NCBI GenBank assembly: GCA_014379585.1
Contig: JACMLN010000001.1
Span: 1-45,872 of the forward strand
Direction of reading: 5' to 3'
DNA: 45,872 nucleotides
Source: Gloeobacterales cyanobacterium ES-bin-313
Lineage (GTDB): Bacteria > Cyanobacteriota > Cyanobacteriia > Gloeobacterales > Gloeobacteraceae
Shown in pieces: positions 5,753-16,079 of this stretch. The position numbers and the translations under genes were made by a program. The notes under the pieces were generated by a model. The model worked only from the letters and a program-made list of their open reading frames with translations. It did no database searches and had not been told where the DNA came from. Each line of letters starts with the position of its first letter. Within the stretch, counting starts at the first letter, position 1.

Positions 5753-6541
5753 TCATCGCAGGATACTGACTACTTGCTCTAACCGTGGCTGACCGAAGCG
5801 AGTCCAGGCACTGCCTCCTCGCAAGAATAGCTCCATGAACCGAATCGTCGTGCCGTCGGTTCGGTTCCAACCAGAACTGCCGGGGGCAAAGGCGAGGGTA
5901 CCTTCCGCTACCTTAAAACTGCCGTCTGTGTAGACTGCGTCGCTGACCACGTCGCCCACCCGCACAACCAGTTTGCTGCCCACCTCCAGATCGATACTGG
6001 AATGGACGATGGTCGTCTTTAGATTGCCGAAGCCATCCACCCAGGCGAGTTGATTATCTGGTATCGGCGGGAGGCTCTGCCGATCCAAAGCGTCGCCAAG
6101 AAGCTCCAGCTTTTGCTGGGCAATCTCGCTGGCAGCTATCGGAAAGATATCGCGGGAACGGAACTGCGATCCCGCCCGTGCCACGTTGATCGTTCGTAGG
6201 GAAAGAGCGTGCTCTTTGATAAACGAGAGCGTAAAGCCCGCGTAGACACCGACCACTTGGATCCCATTCGGGAGTAGGGCATAGACCAATCCTTCGCCTT
6301 CATTGTCGCGGCGACCCTGACGATCATCGCGGCGCGGCGCACAGTTGTGATAGATGAGGGTGTCTTTGGGAGCCAAATTGAGGCCGAGTTGGGCAACCCA
6401 GAAACCAGTGGCTAGGGTGCTGAATGCCGGTACCGAAAGTGGGACAATTTGCGCATTTTCGAGGTAGAAGTGCAGACGCTGACTTACTTCCGAGAAAGCC
6501 GGATCCCCCACGCCATAATCTGCAATTAAGTGAACAAGCAT
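5753..6541 (-). CDS. SAM hydroxide adenosyltransferase-like protein (DUF62 family)
   Basis: The 262-residue protein matches the SAM-dependent chlorinase/fluorinase/hydroxide adenosyltransferase family. The N-terminal IADYGVGD replaces the usual TDFG-x-x-D. Further features are the VGVYAGFTLSFI strand, VDGFGNLKTTI (family: DxFGNxxTN) and a C-terminal FAPGSSGW near the usual NSxG. The family hydrolyses SAM to adenosine and methionine. Several canonical residues are changed, so this is a divergent subfamily like those common in cyanobacteria, and the activity is not certain. ATG 6541 is chosen because GAGG stands six bases upstream and the conserved start MLVHLIADYG follows. A GTG at 6583 would add 14 residues without conservation. 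A hairpin lies in the presumed leader. Confidence 0.8.
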   Translation of the reverse strand: MLVHLIADYGVGDPAFSEVSQRLHFYLENAQIVPLSVPAFSTLATGFWVAQLGLNLAPKDTLIYHNCAPRRDDRQGRRDNEGEGLVYALLPNGIQVVGVYAGFTLSFIKEHALSLRTINVARAGSQFRSRDIFPIAASEIAQQKLELLGDALDRQSLPPIPDNQLAWVDGFGNLKTTIVHSSIDLEVGSKLVVRVGDVVSDAVYTDGSFKVAEGTLAFAPGSSGWNRTDGTTIRFMELFLRGGSAWTRFGQPRLEQVVSILR

Positions 6542-6580
6542 GTCTGGCCTCAGAAGGAATCTGGTCTCTTCAGGCCACCT

Positions 6581-6624
6581 CACCTTCTCCCGGAAGCTGT
6601 ACGGTTGTCAATCATCCGAAGGTG
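6581..6624 (-). promoter_or_regulatory. Hairpin in the presumed 5' leader of the SAM-hydrolase-like gene
   Basis: CACCTTC (6581-6587) pairs with GAAGGTG (6618-6624). The helix continues as GGA (6592-6594) with TCC (6615-6617) after a four-base bulge. The structure lies about 40-83 bases upstream of the ATG of the minus-strand gene. It does not match a SAM or SAH riboswitch I know. It may be a leader structure or chance. Confidence 0.3.
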
Positions 6625-6790
6625 ACTTGTTTTTCTGGCTCACTTTCTTTTAGCGAATGATCCCCTTCGACGGCTACATCCCCCTCCCCTGCTTGCAGAT
6701 CGCTTTTAAGCCTGGGCAAAGCCTGCCAATCTTCTCTGATAATCACAGAAACGGATCGAAGTCAAATTAGCGGATAATGCCCACGTGAAG

Positions 6791-6820
6791 TCGGGGGCCA
6801 ACGAGAACCTCGACGACCCC
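6791..6820. repeat. 30-nt direct repeat, copy A
   Basis: Copy A matches copy B (7268-7297) at 26 of 30 positions in the same orientation. Both contain CGAGAAC followed by a pairing CTCG or TTCG, giving a small hairpin, and end in CGACCCC. The change CTCG to TTCG keeps the pairing through G-U, which hints at selection on RNA or DNA folding. A T-rich run (6824-6835) follows copy A. Confidence 0.75.
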
Positions 6821-6870
6821 AGGTTTTATTTTTTTGTGGAATGGATTAAAAGATGGCGAACGGCACCAAA

Positions 6871-6891
6871 GGGCAGGGGCAGGCCCCGCCC
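6871..6891. repeat. GC-rich hairpin
   Basis: GGGC-A-GGGGC pairs with GCCCC-GCCC across a two-base AG turn, giving a nine-pair stem with one bulged A. No T-run follows on either side, so it is not a standard intrinsic terminator. It sits between the two 30-nt repeats, next to a second hairpin. Confidence 0.5.
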
Positions 6892-6908
6892 TCTGGACTC
6901 CCGCCCCC

Positions 6909-6934
6909 GTGGGGGACAGAAGCCTGTCCCCCAC
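6909..6934. repeat. Perfect 11-bp inverted repeat with AAGC loop
   Basis: GTGGGGGACAG (6909-6919) and CTGTCCCCCAC (6924-6934) are perfect reverse complements around a four-base loop. This is one of the strongest hairpins in the window. There is no adjoining T-tract. It could be part of a structured RNA or the end of a small mobile element. Confidence 0.6.
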
Positions 6935-7267
6935 ACCCCCTTGGCAACTTTAGTGGCTTGATGCTGAGTGATACCGGGCTGCGCAGACTTTGTCTCACGT
7001 TGCGGTGGGAGGCGTGACTTGCACAGTTTGTGGACTGGCGGCACGGTTGGTATGACGCTGCGCGTCCCAAGCTCATGGCGCTACGCGTGATGGTGCATGG
7101 CCAACTGGTCTTGGAAGTCCGTCGAAATTGGGTGGAGGCTGGCTGGCATAGGCCAGAGGTGTGGGAGGTGAGTCTTACGGGCTTGCAAAGGTTTCTCTTT
7201 GGACTGATCGTGGACAAAGCAAAGACAGAGAAATCGATGGCAATTCGAGGAATATGTCCGTGCAGAA

Positions 7268-7297
7268 TCGGGGCCCGACGAGAACTTCGCCGACCCC
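7268..7297. repeat. 30-nt direct repeat, copy B
   Basis: Copy B of the repeat also found at 6791-6820, in the same orientation, with starts 477 bases apart. Four substitutions separate the copies. With only two copies and a large gap it does not look like a CRISPR array. It could mark the ends of a small inserted element. Confidence 0.75.
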
Positions 7298-7397
7298 ATT
7301 GGTATATTTCGTTGTTTGTCATGGGCGAAAGTCTCAGCTACGCCCTTTGGTTACATGCTGAGATTCAGGAAGTTTAGAATCATGCCAGTTCGGGGCA

Positions 7398-7652
7398 TTA
7401 GTTACGCCAACGTTTATCTGCTCTTAAAGGGCTTGAGCGAGGAACAAAGATCACATCTAGATGCCAAAGTAAATTGTCCAATGGTCTACGATAGAGTTCA
7501 GCCAGATCATACAAAAGAAAATCATACTCTGCAAGAAAAGTGATGACCTCATGTGCTAGGCTTGAGCTTTTGTGAATATCCAATAAATTGATCTGAACTT
7601 GAATAGCAGAGAAGGAGTGGAGTGAATTTGCCGCACCTTTTGCTATCGACAA
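7398..7652 (-). pseudogene. FkbM-family methyltransferase remnant (C-terminal end only)
   Basis: The frame translates to a stretch (VQINLLDIHKSSSLAHEVITF... and YDLAELYRRPLDNLLWHLDVIFV) that matches the C-terminal part of FkbM-type SAM-dependent methyltransferases. There, xYDLxxLxRRPLDGxLWQVDxIFV is typical. Only about 70 residues remain. The SAM-binding core is absent, and the first 15 codons look unrelated. It lies 12 bases downstream of the acyltransferase gene on the same strand, so it is the truncated tail end of the glycan cluster. The original enzyme probably O-methylated a sugar. It is most likely non-functional. Confidence 0.7.
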
Positions 7653-7664
7653 AAGTGCTAAACT

Positions 7665-8873
7665 TCACCGCTGAGACGCCTGTTGTTTAAGACTGTAACG
7701 CCAGTCCTGAAAAGGTTTTTCGACAACCCGATAGAATACGTAGCAGACTGAGATCGTTATCAGCCAGCCAACAAGATGTAGAAGTAAATAATAAGGGCTT
7801 TTAAGTTCTATATACCGATTTCCCAAATTTATAACTCTGCCAAGAATGGGAACATGGAGCAAATAAAGAGAATAGGACATCGTGCCTAAGTGTTTGAGCC
7901 AACTAAGTGTTCGCATCTTTGCTAGTCTATTGTCCCATATATAAAGCAAGCACAAGCTGCAAGCAATCATAGAGCTAAAGCTTAGGGTACTCCACTGTAG
8001 ATGTTCAACAAAGCCAAGAAAGCCAAAAAAGATAATGAAGGCTAACAGGAAATAGCTCTTAATCCGCTCTGTATCCCAAAAATGAAGAACGAGAAATGCG
8101 AGAATTCCACAGTAAAACTCTGGCCATAAATTAATTACAGTGCCGAAAGATTGGAGTGGTTCAAACTTACAGGCTATTGTAAAAACAAATGAGACAAAAA
8201 ACAAAAGATAATCATGGAGTATAAATTTTTGGCTTAACACTTTTCGAAAAAAACCTTGAGGTAAGAAGAGTTTATATTCGCTATCAATCAGCTTACTTGA
8301 AAACTCTTGACTATGTATACGCTGATAAGCATCATAAAGTAAGGCAACCAATAAATAAAACCCAACTTCAACAGCAAGGCTCCAGTACACTACAACATAA
8401 GGTTCAACATGCAAGTAAGGCTGAATCAAAAATATATTTGCAATCCAATCAGTTAAAGAATTTGGCAAATTGTCTAGTAGCTTTGTGTGGTTGAGTGGAA
8501 TAGCAATTATCGAAATTGCCACTGTCGCTAAAATTGAACTCCAATATGTCGGGAGAATACGTAGAAATCGGTCACCTAAAAATTGGAATGAAGTTTGTTG
8601 TTTTCTGAGAAGACTATGAGCATTGGCAGCAACACAGTAACCGCTTATAACAAAGAAAATATGTACACCGAGCCAGCCGGGGTTTGCTAGAAACTTAATA
8701 ATTTGGGTGGCAAAACTCTGCTCAACGGAGTAAACCGTGGCAAAACTATGGAAAGTCATTACCCACAAGGCTGAGAAGCCACGCCAAAGATCGAGGGTTT
8801 TATATCGCGAACTTTTAAATGTTGGTGCCACTCTTTCATGTCCAACATCTTTTGTAATTTTTTTTTGGTTCAC
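7665..8873 (-). CDS. Acyltransferase-3 family membrane protein (OafA/YrhL-like)
   Basis: The 402-residue integral membrane protein has about ten hydrophobic helices. The family motif is in helix 1, with Arg31 in LDLWRGFSALWVMTFH and catalytic-type His42. FFVISGYC follows in the next helix. Acyltransferase-3 proteins move acyl groups, often acetyl, onto sugars at the membrane, so this one probably decorates the surface glycan. The start is a GTG at 8873 overlapping the stop of the preceding gene (GTGA). Codons 3-6 contain a run of nine A (8858-8866), where slippage would shift the frame. It is the last intact gene of the cluster. The donor and sugar are unknown. Confidence 0.88.
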   Translation of the reverse strand: MNQKKITKDVGHERVAPTFKSSRYKTLDLWRGFSALWVMTFHSFATVYSVEQSFATQIIKFLANPGWLGVHIFFVISGYCVAANAHSLLRKQQTSFQFLGDRFLRILPTYWSSILATVAISIIAIPLNHTKLLDNLPNSLTDWIANIFLIQPYLHVEPYVVVYWSLAVEVGFYLLVALLYDAYQRIHSQEFSSKLIDSEYKLFLPQGFFRKVLSQKFILHDYLLFFVSFVFTIACKFEPLQSFGTVINLWPEFYCGILAFLVLHFWDTERIKSYFLLAFIIFFGFLGFVEHLQWSTLSFSSMIACSLCLLYIWDNRLAKMRTLSWLKHLGTMSYSLYLLHVPILGRVINLGNRYIELKSPYYLLLHLVGWLITISVCYVFYRVVEKPFQDWRYSLKQQASQR

Positions 8874-10005
8874 TTATGGCTAGGCCATAGTTTCTTACTT
8901 ACAAAATTTCGAACTAGTCCAGTATTTGCTTCGGTTAAACTGGCAATAAATCCAGCATAAAGAAGGATCACTAGAGAAATTCCGAGGTGATAAATTATTG
9001 CCCGAGAGTCTGGTTGCCATTTTTGGCTCGGACTTGCTGTACCAAAAATAGCTATCAAGAAATTCAATACTGGAGCGTGAACCAGATAAGTTGTACACGA
9101 AAAACTTGCAAGCTGCAATGACAATTTTCGCCAAAGTGTCATTTGATTTTGACACGGGTTGTAGTTTGTCGCAAGATAAATACTCGATGCGAAAAACAGA
9201 GCACTAATTAAGTCTGAAGCAAATTCAGTAAGTTGCATAGGGAGGTGAGATTGCAACCTAGCGAAGCTTGAAGGAATGGCTATAATTATGAACAGTAAAA
9301 TTGGTGTCAATGGTTCTAATAAAGTTCGCAGTTTCTTTGATAGTGGAGGAAGAAAAATGGGGACGGAGCCAAGCAACCAGATCAAAAAGTAAAGTGCAAT
9401 CTGAGAACCTATAAACCACAGACAAACAACAAACAAAGACAAAAGTAAAAATTTGGTTACTAGCTTTCTTTCTACAATTGCAATCACTAAAAATGGGAAT
9501 AGCAGGTAATACCAAAATTCATTGCACAGACTCCAGAGCGGATAATTCGATCCGTATGATGACACTACAATCGTCTGGAGAAAGAAAATATTGCCGAAAA
9601 AAGTTAGAAAGCTCAAATCTAATAGACTATGACTACTTCTCAAAGAAGCAAAGTTATCCCAGAAAAATGTTAATAAAAGGCACGGAATAAGTACAACTTC
9701 TAACCTAGTTATCCGGTTCAGCAAGTATTCTTTCCATGACCATCTTTGCTCAGTTACTGCTTTAAGTACGCTACGCGATATCAAGAAGCCACTAAGAACA
9801 AAAACATTAATACTGGCTGACGACCAAAGCCTGTCAAAAAATAAAACAAAGTCGTAGTTAGGTTGTTTTCAATAGTAAGATTCTGATAAGCGACAAAAAA
9901 ACTGTTTTTGACATGATGCACAAGAACAAATATAGCAGCCAGTCCACGAAATAGATCTAGTAAAGCTGAAGAGTGCTGGTTTAGGTTGGCTAGATTCAAT
10001 TTCAT
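8870..10005 (-). pseudogene. Acyltransferase-3 family gene broken by a one-base frameshift
   Basis: Two adjacent frames form one gene. The N-terminal piece (9781-10005, 74 codons) has the family motif Arg20 and His30/31 in LFRGLAAIFVLVHH. The C-terminal piece (to 8870, about 304 codons) continues with GFLISRSV and about nine membrane helices. The conserved FFVLSGFLIS motif is split between them. Adding one T to the run of five at 9800-9804 (minus-strand T) restores LMFFVLSGFLIS exactly. The break is therefore a single-base loss in a homopolymer, due to mutation, reversible slippage or a sequencing error. If the frame is restored the product is a normal O-acyltransferase of about 378 residues. 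Confidence 0.85.
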
Positions 10006-10013
10006 AAAATAAG

Positions 10014-10988
10014 CTAAATCTTCTTAGCTATAAGCATTGAGGGTTTTTCAACCAGATTATAAAGAATTTTAGCTGCAATCAGACATGTGGCTAAAACCAC
10101 TAAATCATAGAAGATATGAAGTGGTAGAAATTCAATCCAAAGCCCTGTTCGAAATTGGAGTAGAAGATAGCAACCGATAGGAACGTGAGAAAGATATAAA
10201 CTGTAAGAGGCTTCCCCAACCTGACTAAACCAGTTCTCTCTAGTAATTTTTTTCTCTGAATCATTTAATGAAAATAAAATTGAGAAGTACGATAAAGAGG
10301 CCACAACAAGAGAAACAGGTGGCTGCTTTAAAAGAATTCCTAAAATGCTTAATATAAACAAAGATATTGATTCAGCTCGATTTCCTCGATTCAGTTCATT
10401 CAAGCTTGCTCCTAATGAGAAAAACGAGAACTGATTTAACACAAAAAAGTAATGCTCAGAGCCTGGAATCACACTTAAAAATGCAAAGATATAAAGAGTT
10501 GGTAACCTCATCCGCTTGTTTAACAATGAAATACTTACGATCAAGTAGAAAATGACTTCGTAAGTTAAAGTCCAATAGACCCAGTTAATAGTTGGAATCG
10601 AGGATGCAGGATTGGTCATGAGGAGGATAGTCGCAATCCAAGCCGGAAAACTACTCGGAAGGACGGTGACATCATTTACTCCTATCGTAAGCTTCTTAAT
10701 GGCACATACTGATAAAACGAGAATAATACTAAAAATATAGGGTGGATAAATGCGAAAGAAACGCTTTCCAAAAAAGCTTAAGGCTGAATTTGATCGAGCA
10801 GCTGCAAGTTGAATACAATAACCACTGACAATAAAAAAGACAGGAACCCCCATCCAGCCAAATTTGGCAAAGGACTGATAAAAGTTATTTTGAAAGGGAA
10901 TGGGTTCGTTAAGGTGAAAAATGACAACTGCTATACAAGATATTCCACGCAATGTATCCAACCAATAGTTTCTGCTCTCTACTTTCAT
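10014..10988 (-). CDS. Acyltransferase-3 family membrane protein
   Basis: The 324-residue multi-pass protein has the family motif Arg14 and His25 in DTLRGISCIAVVIFHLNEP. VPVFFIVSGYC follows, then a KRFFRIYPPY loop typical of the superfamily. It is the first of three tandem acyltransferases and ends eight bases before the frameshifted second one. Probable role: O-acetylation or other acylation of glycan precursors at the inner membrane. The gene is AT-rich, like its two followers, which sets the trio apart from the more balanced glycosyltransferase genes upstream and suggests joint transfer. Substrate unknown. Confidence 0.88.
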   Translation of the reverse strand: MKVESRNYWLDTLRGISCIAVVIFHLNEPIPFQNNFYQSFAKFGWMGVPVFFIVSGYCIQLAAARSNSALSFFGKRFFRIYPPYIFSIILVLSVCAIKKLTIGVNDVTVLPSSFPAWIATILLMTNPASSIPTINWVYWTLTYEVIFYLIVSISLLNKRMRLPTLYIFAFLSVIPGSEHYFFVLNQFSFFSLGASLNELNRGNRAESISLFILSILGILLKQPPVSLVVASLSYFSILFSLNDSEKKITRENWFSQVGEASYSLYLSHVPIGCYLLLQFRTGLWIEFLPLHIFYDLVVLATCLIAAKILYNLVEKPSMLIAKKI

Positions 10989-11023
10989 TTACCCTTTTAT
11001 ATAAAGCGCTGAGTTTATGTGAA

Positions 11024-12280
11024 TTATTGAATGATGTATTCTGGTTCAGAGCCCTCTTGAAGTACCCATTTATAAACCTGATACATTTTCTGGGTAATCG
11101 TTGGCCAAGCATAACTTTTTTCAACAAGTTGCCTTCCCTGTTCTCCCATCGCAATGCGAGAAGCTTGAGATAGTTGAAGTCCCTCTTGCAAAGTTTCTAG
11201 AAGGCTGGTTTCTGAATTTTCAATCCACCAGCCGCAGGAATGAGTAACTAATTCTTTCCATGGAGTTCCATGGGTGGTAATCACTGGCACTTGATATGAC
11301 AACGCTTCGGCAATGGCGATGCCAAAGTTTTCTGAGAAAGATGGCAATACAAAGAGGTCTGCATTTGAAAACGCAGCGGCTTTATCTTCTCCGCGCAACA
11401 TGCCTGTGAAGGTGACGCGATCCTCTAGGCGAAGTTGGCTAACTTGAGCCTGCAAACTGGGCTGATAGCCGTCGAGATCAGGGCCAGCAATCAGGAGATG
11501 CCAATCAGGAAATTTTGCTGCAAGTTTGCTCCAGCATTGCATAAGTGCTGGAAGTCCTTTCTTTGGATGGAGGCGGGACAAAAATAGTAGCCATCGCCGA
11601 TTGCGTAACAGCGGGAATCGATGTTCTAGACGCTGGCGCAACTGAGGTCGGTCAAGATCCAGAGAAGGAAGATCGACACCGTTTGGAATTAAGGCTATCG
11701 GCTGTTTGAATCCGAGAGCACGGATGGATTGTGCTTCGGCCTCAGATGTTGCATGAAATAGATGGGCAGATGATAAGTTAGTTTTCTCGAAGGACTGCCA
11801 AGCTATTGTTTTCTTCCAGCGAGCACGTTGGATTGACCAAGGCTCAAGCATGCCCCGTGGAGAAATAATCAAAGGCACTTTGTTTTGCTTTGCGGCAAGT
11901 CGAGCATACAAGTTAGGCTGCATCCACAATCCATGGTTGTGAATTAGATCTAAATTGGCGGCGAATGTATCAAGTTCTTTAGCAAGTTGCGGTGAGTATC
12001 CGCGAAAAAAGCGGGTTATCAACGGTGCTGGAAAACTGTGGAGCTGCACATTCTGAGGGATCTGTTGCTTGCCTAGATGTGTATAGTCAAGGGTGAATAG
12101 ATGGCAGAAAGTATTCTGAACTGCCAATTCTTGAGTGAGGCGCGTGACGGAAAGCGCTGGGCCGCCTGTTTTTTCGTTAATGCTGGCAACAACATGACCG
12201 CATCGCAGTATTGGCATTTCAGTCTGGGGCGAACGATGGTCGGAATTAGGAGAGGCAGCGGAAGATTCAAAAATGGCCAT
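11024..12280 (-). CDS. GT4-type glycosyltransferase
   Basis: The 418-residue protein has two Rossmann-like halves (GT-B fold). The N-terminal domain carries INEKTGGPALSVTRL and HNHGLWM. The donor-binding domain carries IPNGVDLP, LFLSRLHPKKGLP and SENFGIAIAEALS, the E-x7-E element of retaining GT4 enzymes. It should transfer a sugar from a nucleotide donor to the growing lipid-linked glycan at the cytoplasmic face. The start overlaps the preceding gene by 14 bases. An internal ATG at 12217 (MPILRCGH) starts closer to the conserved fold and is an alternative. The sugar is unknown. Confidence 0.9.
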   Translation of the reverse strand: MAIFESSAASPNSDHRSPQTEMPILRCGHVVASINEKTGGPALSVTRLTQELAVQNTFCHLFTLDYTHLGKQQIPQNVQLHSFPAPLITRFFRGYSPQLAKELDTFAANLDLIHNHGLWMQPNLYARLAAKQNKVPLIISPRGMLEPWSIQRARWKKTIAWQSFEKTNLSSAHLFHATSEAEAQSIRALGFKQPIALIPNGVDLPSLDLDRPQLRQRLEHRFPLLRNRRWLLFLSRLHPKKGLPALMQCWSKLAAKFPDWHLLIAGPDLDGYQPSLQAQVSQLRLEDRVTFTGMLRGEDKAAAFSNADLFVLPSFSENFGIAIAEALSYQVPVITTHGTPWKELVTHSCGWWIENSETSLLETLQEGLQLSQASRIAMGEQGRQLVEKSYAWPTITQKMYQVYKWVLQEGSEPEYIIQ

Positions 12281-13403
12281 CGGCCTCGCAAAGAAATTGA
12301 CTTAGGCGTTCGCGAAATCGGGAAAATCCATAGGTCTGAATGACAGATTCCCGCAGGCGCTCAGGTTGATAGATCAGTGGGTGACGATGCTCTTTATTCA
12401 AGATGAGTAAAAGATTTTTCCCGATCTGCTCAAAATCTTCGGGATCGACTAAAACACCAAAATCGCCAAAGTGTAATGCATCGACGGAGCCATCTTTGTT
12501 ACCCGCTAAGACAGGTTTACCAGAAGAGAGGGCTTCTAAAAAGACGATGCCAAAGCCCTCACCACAACTGGGCATGGTAAACACATCGCAGAGGTTGTAG
12601 TAGTCAGGTAGTTCTTCGTCCGACACGAAACCAAGGAGAATAACGTTCTCTTGAAGACCGAGATCGCGAATCATTTGCTTTACGCGCTCCATGTCTGGCC
12701 CCTTACCGCCAATTAAGTAGCGCACATTGGGTAACTGGGAACGGATGGCAGTGAGGCAACGCAATATCTGATCGTACCCCTTGTAGGCTTCACTGCCCTC
12801 CAAACGAGTAACTGTGAAGATCACCGGTTGGGAAGGTGTTAGATGATGGCGATCCAATAGATATTTGGGTTTTGGGCCTATCTGAAAGCGTTCGGGATTA
12901 AAGGTGTTCGGTAGAACAGCGACGTTTTCTGGATGGAGATTCTGTTCTTTTAGTAAGCGATTGCGGGTATAGGTGCTGACGGCAAGAATGCGATCGGCAT
13001 GGTGGAGGGCTCTCTGCAATTCCGGGTCTTCAATATTCCAAGATTCAATGCCGTGAGCGACAGTCCAGTAAGGAATATCTAGCCATTTTTTCAGATAGTA
13101 AGCAGCCAAACAGAAGTGTAGATGGGTCGTTATGATGAGAGCCGGCCTTGTCTTAAATGCGCGGATGAATAAGCTACTGGCAAATGCAACTGTCCGTGCC
13201 GGTTGCGGCCAGTCCCCACCGCAGTGATAGTGGGTCACTGGCAAGGATGGCACACCGCTGCGGCAATCATTTTTTATGAATAGTTCAAGGTTTGCCTGAG
13301 GTAGGGCATCGCACAATGCTTGTAGAAAAAACTGTGAGAAGACCTGGATTCCCCCCCGGTAGTCATACATTCCAGGAGTCCAAAGATGCAGACTATTGGT
13401 CAT
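12267..13403 (-). CDS. GT4-type glycosyltransferase
   Basis: The 378-residue GT-B protein has GMYDYRGGIQVFSQFF near the start, then VAHGIESW, VLPNTFNPERF and VTRLEGSEAYKGYD. SCGEGFGIVFLEALSSGKPV carries the E-x7-E motif. These are classic GT4 landmarks, close to mannosyl/glucosyl-transferases of surface glycan clusters. It begins right next to a remnant of an acetyltransferase gene on the other strand and overlaps the next gene by 14 bases. Function is inferred from family and context. Donor and acceptor cannot be assigned. Confidence 0.92.
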   Translation of the reverse strand: MTNSLHLWTPGMYDYRGGIQVFSQFFLQALCDALPQANLELFIKNDCRSGVPSLPVTHYHCGGDWPQPARTVAFASSLFIRAFKTRPALIITTHLHFCLAAYYLKKWLDIPYWTVAHGIESWNIEDPELQRALHHADRILAVSTYTRNRLLKEQNLHPENVAVLPNTFNPERFQIGPKPKYLLDRHHLTPSQPVIFTVTRLEGSEAYKGYDQILRCLTAIRSQLPNVRYLIGGKGPDMERVKQMIRDLGLQENVILLGFVSDEELPDYYNLCDVFTMPSCGEGFGIVFLEALSSGKPVLAGNKDGSVDALHFGDFGVLVDPEDFEQIGKNLLLILNKEHRHPLIYQPERLRESVIQTYGFSRFRERLSQFLCEADGHF

Positions 13404-13490
13404 TTCTATGTGAAAAAATTTTTGAATTTCTCAAGTGTATCCCTAGCGCGCAAGTATGGTTTTCTCCAGGCTGCCCCAAATCGGGAAGGC

Positions 13491-13562
13491 GAACATGACT
13501 GGAGCAAACCCGAATTTTCGTTCAGCAATGCCACACGTCTAGAAGCTTCAGCAATTCAGGGG
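13491..13562 (+). pseudogene. Inverted fragment of a WcaF-type acetyltransferase gene
   Basis: On the plus strand the frame HDWSKPEFSFSNATRLEASA closely resembles HDWSKSEFSLITAPIHIETG in the minus-strand acetyltransferase that begins just to the right. At DNA level 13494-13520 matches the reverse complement of 13792-13818 at 25 of 27 bases. The rest of the gene is absent. The residues that differ look like those of a paralogue, not of a recent copy. It is therefore probably the remains of a second, inverted acetyltransferase gene. Confidence 0.55.
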
Positions 13563-13575
13563 GGAACTCACACAC

Positions 13576-14145
13576 TTACTTAACCCCTGGCTGGGCTTTA
13601 AACGGGATCTCAACCCTCACTTTAATGAGAACAGCAGGGTTGCCCGAATAGATTTTCATCGGTTCAAGGCTTTGGGTAGCGACACTGCCCAAAGTCAGCA
13701 CAGCGCCACGACCAACAGTCACTCCTGGCCCGACACAACTCCGCGCAGCCAACCAACTCCCCGTTTCAATATGAATCGGGGCAGTGATAAGCGAAAATTC
13801 AGATTTGCTCCAGTCATGATTGCCTGTGCAGAGGTAGACCTGCTGCGAGATGCAGACGTGGCTTTCGATGGAAATTTGGGCCACATTGTCGATCCAGGCA
13901 TTCTCACCCAGCCAGACATAATCCCCAAGGGTCAACCGCCAAGGAAATTTGATGCGCACCCCTGGTTTAATCCGCACCCCAGTCCCAATCTGGGCACCGA
14001 AGCTGCGGAGCAACTGCACTTTCATCGCTGAAAACGGCAGCAGCCTGCTCTCGGTCATAGGACTTCCCAGAAAATACCAGAGTAATTGCTTCCAGAGAGG
14101 CGCTCCAGGGGTGTACTTCCCGACGCTATAGAGGTCTAGTTGCAT
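13576..14145 (-). CDS. WcaF-like colanic-acid-type O-acetyltransferase (left-handed beta-helix)
   Basis: The 189-residue protein starts MQLDLYSVGKYTPGAP and keeps the WcaF layout. KVQLLRSFGAQIGTGVRIKP introduces hexapeptide repeats of the left-handed beta-helix. GNHDWS carries the catalytic-type His, and VGPGVTVGRGAVLTLGSVA forms the last coils. Enzymes of this clade acetylate sugars with acetyl-CoA. ATG 14145 gives the conserved N-terminus and a four-base gap to the previous stop. A start at 14181 would add 12 residues that shadow the upstream gene. An inverted fragment of a similar gene lies just downstream. Confidence 0.88.
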   Translation of the reverse strand: MQLDLYSVGKYTPGAPLWKQLLWYFLGSPMTESRLLPFSAMKVQLLRSFGAQIGTGVRIKPGVRIKFPWRLTLGDYVWLGENAWIDNVAQISIESHVCISQQVYLCTGNHDWSKSEFSLITAPIHIETGSWLAARSCVGPGVTVGRGAVLTLGSVATQSLEPMKIYSGNPAVLIKVRVEIPFKAQPGVK

Positions 14146-14149
14146 ACTT

Positions 14150-14953
14150 TCAGGAGAGCGGCTCCCTGAGTTGCTCGGCATTCTTTGCGATGCGCATCTG
14201 TTGATGCTCGATTAAATAGAGAGAGAGTAAAATTTCGGCCAAAACACGTTGCAAGGTGTAATACCAACCAGCCCAGCCAGCAAACAAACAACCACGAATA
14301 AATAGACAGTACAAAAGGACTATAAGTGGAGCCAAAATCCGTGTTTTTCGTAGCCGATCAGCCAAACTGAGCGAACTGTCAGGAATACTGTTCAATTTTT
14401 CGACTTCAAGAGCCATATAGCGCGCTTGAGACTGAAGCCAGCGCCCTAAAGGCTTTCGATCATCATGATTAATGAAGCCGTCCAACATATTCGACTTCCC
14501 ACTCACTTGCAACAGCTGAGTATGGCCGTCATTAATATAGGTCGCACAATCCCGCCGAAATAAAGCTACACGAGGAGGCAAAAGACTCCCCGGAAGGGGA
14601 GAACCAAAAACACAGTAGCGAAACCGGATTGAAAAAGCGTCAATATTAGAGTTGGGTTTGAGATTCTGCAGTTCTTCGATTAATTCATCACTTAGCACAT
14701 AGTCTGCATCTAGGGAAAGAACCCAGGGGGTTATAACCATGTGAAGACCGTAATTCCATTGACTGCCATGGGTATCAAAATGGCGTTGAAAAACTTGAAC
14801 TACAGGATAGGAATTGGCAATTTCTAAAGTCTGATCTGTGCTGTAGCTATCGATGATAATAATCCGTTTAGCCCAGTACAACTTTTCCAAAGTTCGCCGA
14901 AGATTTGGTGCCTCGTTAAAAGTCAGAATGAGTGGAGTGATCAACTCAGTCAT
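14150..14953 (-). CDS. GT2 glycosyltransferase, KdtX/WaaE-like
   Basis: The 267-residue GT-A protein begins with LITPLILTFNEAPNLRRTLEKL. It has the nucleotide-binding strand IIIIDSYSTDQT and the metal-binding LSLDADYVL. NDGHTQLL and FINHDDRKP follow, the latter typical of the KdtX/WaaE beta-1,4-glucosyltransferase-like subfamily. A hydrophobic C-terminal segment (about 215-245) may anchor it to the membrane. It overlaps the upstream glycosyltransferase by eight bases. It should add one sugar to a lipid-linked acceptor. The exact linkage is not known. Confidence 0.9.
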   Translation of the reverse strand: MTELITPLILTFNEAPNLRRTLEKLYWAKRIIIIDSYSTDQTLEIANSYPVVQVFQRHFDTHGSQWNYGLHMVITPWVLSLDADYVLSDELIEELQNLKPNSNIDAFSIRFRYCVFGSPLPGSLLPPRVALFRRDCATYINDGHTQLLQVSGKSNMLDGFINHDDRKPLGRWLQSQARYMALEVEKLNSIPDSSLSLADRLRKTRILAPLIVLLYCLFIRGCLFAGWAGWYYTLQRVLAEILLSLYLIEHQQMRIAKNAEQLREPLS

Positions 14954-16079
14954 GGTTTTGCTTGCCAGTACTGCTTGTCTCTAATATCTTTTCAAATTCT
15001 TCAAGGTACTGTTTGGCGATTGAAGCATAACTAAATCGCTGAGCCGTATATATTGCACCAGAGCGCAACTGCTCGGCAGATTCAAGTGCTTGAATTAATC
15101 GCATCGCAAGGTTATTAACGGCCTCCTTTGAGCGATGATCGAAGCTAAAGCCATTAACGCCTTCTTCAAGATAATCCTTAAAACACATTAAATCAGAGAC
15201 GACAACTGGCAAGCCACTTGCCATGGCTTCTAGTGGTGCAACACCAAATGCTTCACCCAGTTCAGCGGTTGAGGGATAGCAAAAAATACCCGCACTACGA
15301 TAGACGGCAGCCAACTCATCAGCTTCAAAAATAGGCTCAGTAAAGTCTACCTGAAGTCCATTCGCCATTTTTTTCAGTTTGTTTAAGTAAGTTTCTCCAC
15401 CTCCACCTTGGTTATCTTTCCATGGGCCGACAATGCGCAAACTCAACTCTGGATATTGTGGTTGTAGCCGCGAAAAAGCCTCAACTAACAACTCCACCCC
15501 TTTTTCTGGATGCAGTCTGCCAACATAAAGGATTTGATGCGGCTTTCTCGTATCAGAGGGGAAAAAGTTTGTAATATCAATTGGGTTTGGGATCACGCAT
15601 ACTTGAGGCTCCAAAGAAGGGTTTTGCTGTAATATTGCCACTTGAACTGCACTGGAAGGAGCAGCGAGCCGAGCAGTATCCTTATAAAGAAACATTTGTT
15701 TCTTGGGAAACCTGTTAACAGAAACTACCACCTGGCCTGCTCGTGAATTCAGCCGTGGAGTCAGAGCAGGAAGCCAGAAATCATTCGTCACCAGAATATC
15801 TGCATCGGGTAGTTTCAAAACTGTTTGTATTGCATAGACAGCATCTTTTAGGAGGTCAAGTAAAATATTGGTGCTTTGAGGAAAACCGCCACTGCGCAAA
15901 AATTGTACGCCTCGAATAGTTTCTTTTTCCGGCATTCCTTTCCAGTTACGACATATAATCGTCACCCGATGCCCACGGGTAACAAAGTTTTCAGCCAGAC
16001 CTTGCCAAAGACGTGCCATTGCGCCTCCTTGAACCGCTGGCACAGGCAACCATGGGCCTGTTGCAATTGCTATGTGCAT
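14946..16079 (-). CDS. GT4-type glycosyltransferase
   Basis: The 377-residue GT-B enzyme has GPWLPVPAVQGGAMARL at the N-terminus, the donor-site segment VIPNPIDITNFFP, ILYVGRLHPEKGVELL and STAELGEAFGVAPLEAMASG with the E-x7-E signature. It belongs to the largest family of sugar transferases in the cluster and should act on the cytoplasmic side. Its end overlaps the next gene by eight bases, so the two are probably co-translated. No sugar specificity can be read from the sequence. Confidence 0.92.
   Translation of the reverse strand: MHIAIATGPWLPVPAVQGGAMARLWQGLAENFVTRGHRVTIICRNWKGMPEKETIRGVQFLRSGGFPQSTNILLDLLKDAVYAIQTVLKLPDADILVTNDFWLPALTPRLNSRAGQVVVSVNRFPKKQMFLYKDTARLAAPSSAVQVAILQQNPSLEPQVCVIPNPIDITNFFPSDTRKPHQILYVGRLHPEKGVELLVEAFSRLQPQYPELSLRIVGPWKDNQGGGGETYLNKLKKMANGLQVDFTEPIFEADELAAVYRSAGIFCYPSTAELGEAFGVAPLEAMASGLPVVVSDLMCFKDYLEEGVNGFSFDHRSKEAVNNLAMRLIQALESAEQLRSGAIYTAQRFSYASIAKQYLEEFEKILETSSTGKQNHD

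Follow-up and report, generated by a model that had tools for sequence, protein, structure and literature searches.

The site between positions 6584 and 7664 of the window, by which we mean the whole 45,872 nt of DNA analysed, is probably a decayed intergenic stretch that carries an old local duplication and, between the duplicated parts, one copy of a non-autonomous repeat resembling MITE or REP elements. The repeat family, with its structured core and C-runs matching the stem lengths, is the more interesting part of the site, and the two duplicated 30-nt repeats that enclose the copy are ordinary.

A dispersed family inside the interval

The first-pass annotation, which had noticed the pair of direct repeats, suggested a small non-autonomous element bounded by them. 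Such an element is present inside the interval and has relatives at many places in the host genome, but the 30-nt repeats do not bound it. The following features delimit it:

6824-7097, plus strand: copy of the dispersed hairpin-rich repeat family (blastn to host places at 80-91%; covariance model)
6855-7083, plus strand: structured core of the element, alignable between copies (copy alignments)

The family emerges from a blastn search of the interior against the same genome, a check that had been proposed for it. With 6780-7310 as query, at least 43 stretches reach E <= 0.001 when 40 of the 129 candidates are scored. Leaving aside the self-match and a single stretch of 26 nt, they are 80-91% alike to the query, and all non-self stretches fall within query positions 44-318, that is, window positions 6823-7097; the left edge of the window copy varies from 6824 to 6849 with the partner copy. 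In the host genome of 4.26 Mb, a covariance model of the first 102 core positions, with 150 out of 1623 candidates scored, locates the family at no fewer than 97 places. Nineteen of these lie no more than 250 bases from the first base of a contig, and the family thus also breaks the assembly. Two copies bear a short partial second copy of the core start directly left of the core, which suggests head-to-tail growth. In the 3' part of six copies, AATTCAAAATT is repeated as an AT-rich stretch of variable length.

Outside the host the family is sparse. Among 388 class genomes, at least seven match the core model; besides the host there are six, which score weakly at 32-41 bits. None of five family relatives matches (best 10 candidates per genome scored in both cases). 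In a blastn search of 59 genomes, the core is found in the host and, weakly, in one other. The weak matches in the six other class genomes possibly belong to a wider repeat class. In six alignments from four other genomes, the order of parts is shared with the host (hairpin, C-run, hairpin, C-run), which may reflect distant kinship or convergence. The interior has no match among phages and plasmids, and the core pattern is absent from the viral contigs searched.

The first-pass annotation found no gene between the repeats, and we agree. The interior open reading frames are mechanical only (158 aa on the minus and 115 aa on the plus strand) and match no protein family: Pfam, NCBIfam, PHROGs and PADLOC returned nothing for the interior frames submitted. 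Proof of coding, named in advance as evidence against a non-coding element, did not emerge, and the interior is unlikely to be coding. Moreover, the first half of the core ranges from 94 to 113 nt across copies and its lengths cover all residues modulo 3; hence no reading frame is kept in the core. Of 66 copies, 56 have at least one of the six frames open throughout the core, versus 800 of 1320 shuffles, a modest excess that we read as an effect of composition.

Compensatory variation and run lengths in the core

The family core, about 230 nt long, contains a pair of GC-rich hairpins along with other stems that are weaker. In the window copy, the hairpins and a motif on the opposite strand are located as follows:

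6866-6896, plus strand: core hairpin H1, compensatory changes at 4-5 pairs
6909-6934, plus strand: core hairpin H2, compensatory changes at 2-3 pairs
6884-6908, minus strand: G-quadruplex motif of four G-runs, formed by H1 and the third run

Covariance analysis, likewise proposed beforehand, reveals strong compensatory variation in both core hairpins, and the copies vary in a way that preserves structure. In an alignment of 24 distinct rows, 99.7% of the cells are paired; this alignment and a 10-row alignment of copies chosen for diversity from 33 are not model-fitted and agree with the fitted one described next, yet the structure tested on them was itself taken from these rows. In the 79 model matches (61 distinct rows), whose alignment was fitted to the covariance model and hence favours structure, 98.0% of 1521 cells are paired, and the covariation score is 0.250 versus 0.109 in shuffles and at most 0.084 with the partner slid. 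Double-change cells, which do not count independent events because the copies are related, number 30 versus 7.9 in shuffles for the 24 rows and 145 versus 50.4 for the 79 matches. Further pair types show no excess over shuffles in any of the three alignments. The window copy folded alone is no more stable than shuffles (z -0.61), and its 3' half deviates from the consensus. The compensatory changes would allow a non-coding RNA role for the core hairpins.

Part of this covariation could stem from template-switch mutation instead of selection. A mutational route of this kind has been proposed (PMC8794818), and the two main H1 types are set apart by changes that occur as a block on the two arms. 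That template switching between the hairpin arms in replication accounts for the compensatory variation as such, leaving a fold without selected function, is possible if rather doubtful: H1 pair 20-34 is seen as C-G, A-U and U-A and H2 pair 59-102 as G-C, U-A, C-G and A-U, and the third C-run, though not an arm, also matches the stem length. With about 100 structure-preserving copies in one genome, the family is a natural test set for the question of whether selection or template-switch mutation maintains mobile hairpins.

The third C-run lies a few bases 3' of each core hairpin, and its length tracks the stem. Here, as in the analyses of end motifs, placement, quadruplex motifs and frames, six matches near contig ends were excluded from the 79; 10 of the remaining 73 copies, lying outside the run pattern, were then left out and identical rows merged, which yields 50 copies. 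For H1, three lengths were compared, those of the first G-run, of the second C-run in the 3' arm and of the initial part of the third run; they coincide in 49 of the 50 (length 3 in 27 copies, 4 in 6 and 5 in 16). For H2, the G-run has the same length as the C-run and the third run in 44 of the 50 (41 with 5, 3 with 6), although the copies fall into few types and the independent changes of run length are therefore few. On the opposite strand, H1 reads as four length-matched G-runs followed by a complementary C-run. The minus-strand quadruplex motif occurs in 71 of 73 copies versus 613 of 1460 shuffles of like composition.

G-quadruplex-forming repeats are described from Nostoc and Xanthomonas (PMC4692102). 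They share with the present family the G-runs, the intergenic position and the occurrence in a cyanobacterium, but they are short tandem repeats, whereas the G-runs here are built into the hairpins of a dispersed element.

Ends, placement and likeness to known elements

A 5' motif close to ATACCGTTTC is found in 18 of 73 copies and a 3' motif close to GACGAATCGGTAT, the reverse complement of which resembles ATACCGTTTC, in 27 of 73; a few of these end-motif matches are poor. Nine of the 73 copies have the inverted motifs at both ends, and the window copy has none. By eye, no target-site duplication was recognised in the nine copies with both end motifs, their flanks agreeing no better than by chance. 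Since the copies are old, loss of such duplications is conceivable.

In other copies the start lies about 34 nt before the core, in some cases near a stop codon; some copies of the family lie no more than 20 nt behind one. Where open reading frames on both sides could be classed (42 of 72 copies, 30 having no classed frame on one or both sides), 26 settings are convergent, 15 tandem and 1 divergent, counted on bare frames of at least 80 aa and not on annotated genes. In a circular genome, convergent and divergent gene pairs are equal in number, and thus 26 versus 1 is a strong bias. REPs are enriched behind genes. The window copy itself sits in a tandem setting. The convergent bias is compatible with two causes, insertions upstream of genes being selected against or the element being used behind genes.

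We can envisage the following history. The family may have spread by means of a transposase supplied in trans; insertion upstream of genes would be harmful, and copies would survive mainly behind the 3' ends of genes. Upon read-through from a neighbouring gene, the hairpins might stall transcription or protect transcript ends, and such a role would keep the stems by selection.

A reading in which function comes first, many genes having recruited the core as a transcription terminator or structured RNA and its dispersal being secondary, seems somewhat less probable still than template switching as the source of the fold. The strong stems and the copies just after stop codons speak for it, but Rfam gives 0 matches in the window and, for four family copies with flanks, two matches below the gathering score only (E 0.26 and 4.8), and terminator-like sites in 6500-7700 number one versus 1.4 in shuffles, not above chance. 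A tRNA/tmRNA search found none. It is a long shot that the family forms a dispersed two-state switch between convergent genes, in which a G-quadruplex or triple helix alternates with the hairpin and controls read-through or replication.

The MITE-like reading finds its closest counterpart in Nezha, a MITE of cyanobacteria (PMC3733652). Compared by description, not by sequence, cyanobacterial MITEs of this kind and the present family are both short, non-coding, present in many copies, gene-adjacent and strongly folded, and inverted ends occur here in part of the copies. The family has the many copies, small size and lack of coding capacity by which MITEs are defined. Unlike in MITEs, target-site duplications were not recognised here and the core varies in a structure-preserving way; because of the former we term the family MITE-like and not a MITE. 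With REP, REPIN and BIME elements (PMC3733652, PMC3116915), again compared by description, it shares paired GC-rich hairpins, intergenic position and high copy number. A REP palindrome is 20-40 nt with a GTAG or CGTC tag (PMC3733652), whereas the core here has about 230 nt and at least two long hairpins. The family behaves like a MITE or REP-type element but lacks, or may lack, some of the defining traits. No published description of it was found in mainly open-access literature, and an earlier description is possible.

The direct repeats and their surroundings

The repeats lie outside the family, in a region with the following features:

6791-6820, plus strand: 30-nt direct repeat copy 1, 26/30 identity with 7268-7297
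7268-7297, plus strand: 30-nt direct repeat copy 2, 26/30 identity with 6791-6820
6754-6790, plus strand: left extension of repeat copy 1, lower and gapped identity to the copy 2 side
7233-7267, plus strand: left extension of repeat copy 2, lower and gapped identity to the copy 1 side
5753-6583, minus strand: SAM-hydroxide-adenosyltransferase-like gene (weak, below-cut-off Pfam SAM_HAT_N and SAM_HAT_C)
6622-6737, minus strand: remnant of a gene present at three other host places, 73-74% identity to them
7115-7162, plus strand: fragment resembling part of another contig, 81% over 48 nt

On re-check, the two 30-nt copies, their 26/30 identity and the 447-base interior reported in the first-pass annotation are all correct. 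The copies are in direct orientation at an offset of 477 nt and are the sole ungapped 30-mer pair with at least 26 matches at a distance below 1000 in the whole 45.9-kb window. No comparable pair arose in 20 Markov-1 simulated windows or, even at 24/30, in 200 simulated intergenic regions, and a patterned search for the repeat gave 2 matches versus 0 in 100 shuffles. The match exceeds chance. Leftward, the gapped similarity of the adjoining 41 nt is equalled by 25 of 2000 shuffles, and rightward by 915 of 2000; hence the leftward extension alone is likely real. We picture a stretch of about 65 nt that was duplicated locally long ago, upstream of a conserved gene, with the 30-nt repeats as its best-kept parts.

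The small hairpin that the CTCG to TTCG change was said to keep by G-U pairing (CGAG-AAC-CTCG) is indeed retained on the plus strand, but on the minus strand the pair is broken. Folds of the 51-nt repeat copies have z -1.07 and +0.39 on the plus and -2.32 and -1.74 on the minus strand, and are thus unexceptional, one copy on one strand apart.

The repeats are confined to this site. In the host genome (4,258,318 bases, 198 contigs), the strict repeat pattern has 1 copy, and a looser pattern finds both copies together with 16 further places at 2-3 mismatches, a number not above that of the reversed control. Up to E = 10, a covariance model built on the pair recovers these two host places only, and the remaining 387 of the 388 class genomes have no match at E <= 0.1 (best 11 candidates or fewer per genome scored). 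Upstream of the homologues of 5753-6583 in four family relatives, the 30-nt repeats are absent, as is DNA similarity to the window beyond a chance-level 17-nt match. Uniqueness to the site and absence from relatives, which the first-pass annotation had named as refuting its reading of the locus as a small non-autonomous element or non-coding RNA, are what we find for the repeats. The pair is genuine and confined to this locus, and it carries little weight.

Two further ideas about the repeats were rejected. A motif conserved elsewhere is contradicted by the public species genomes, where the strict pattern has 2 places, both inside unrelated long reading frames (RND-pump-like and ArgB-like, named from translations); viral contigs have none. 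Coding repeats would yield the peptides GANENLDDP and GPDENFADP, which match no Pfam or PHROG family and have weak plasmid places only (E 0.7 and above); in that frame, all four differences fall at codon positions 1 and 2, unlike coding drift.

It is unlikely that the repeats represent two copies of a hairpin that regulates the neighbouring gene or binds a protein there, with the 30-nt core under selection and the flanks decayed. Identity is higher in the 30-mer than in its left extension, and the 30-mer is palindromic with pairs partly kept and lies upstream of the conserved gene on the minus strand at 5753-6583, but its absence upstream of the same gene in the four relatives, the lack of promoter-like sites at the locus and of terminators above chance, and the unexceptional folding of all but one copy on one strand argue against such a role. 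Very improbable is the original suggestion of one mobile unit of about 507 bp with the repeats as its ends and the hairpin core included, for although they bracket a core copy in direct orientation, 477 nt apart, the host has these two repeats alone versus at least 97 core places, core similarity stops well inside, at about 7097, no other family copy has the repeats at its ends, and repeats that occur nowhere else in the host are not the ends of this element.

The old duplication that we favour lies in a region with other remains. The gene behind the 6622-6737 remnant has no Pfam or NCBIfam match; elsewhere in the host it is intact at one place, as an open 245-aa frame, and seemingly broken at two, and at two of the three places it is accompanied by a neighbouring gene. 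The protein of 5753-6583 shares 72-75% identity with its counterparts in 4 of 5 family relatives. On the other side, 7665-16079 (minus strand) holds a run of frames that are acyltransferase- and glycosyltransferase-like in translation, with Pfam support for 7665-8873 alone, and looks like a putative polysaccharide cluster.
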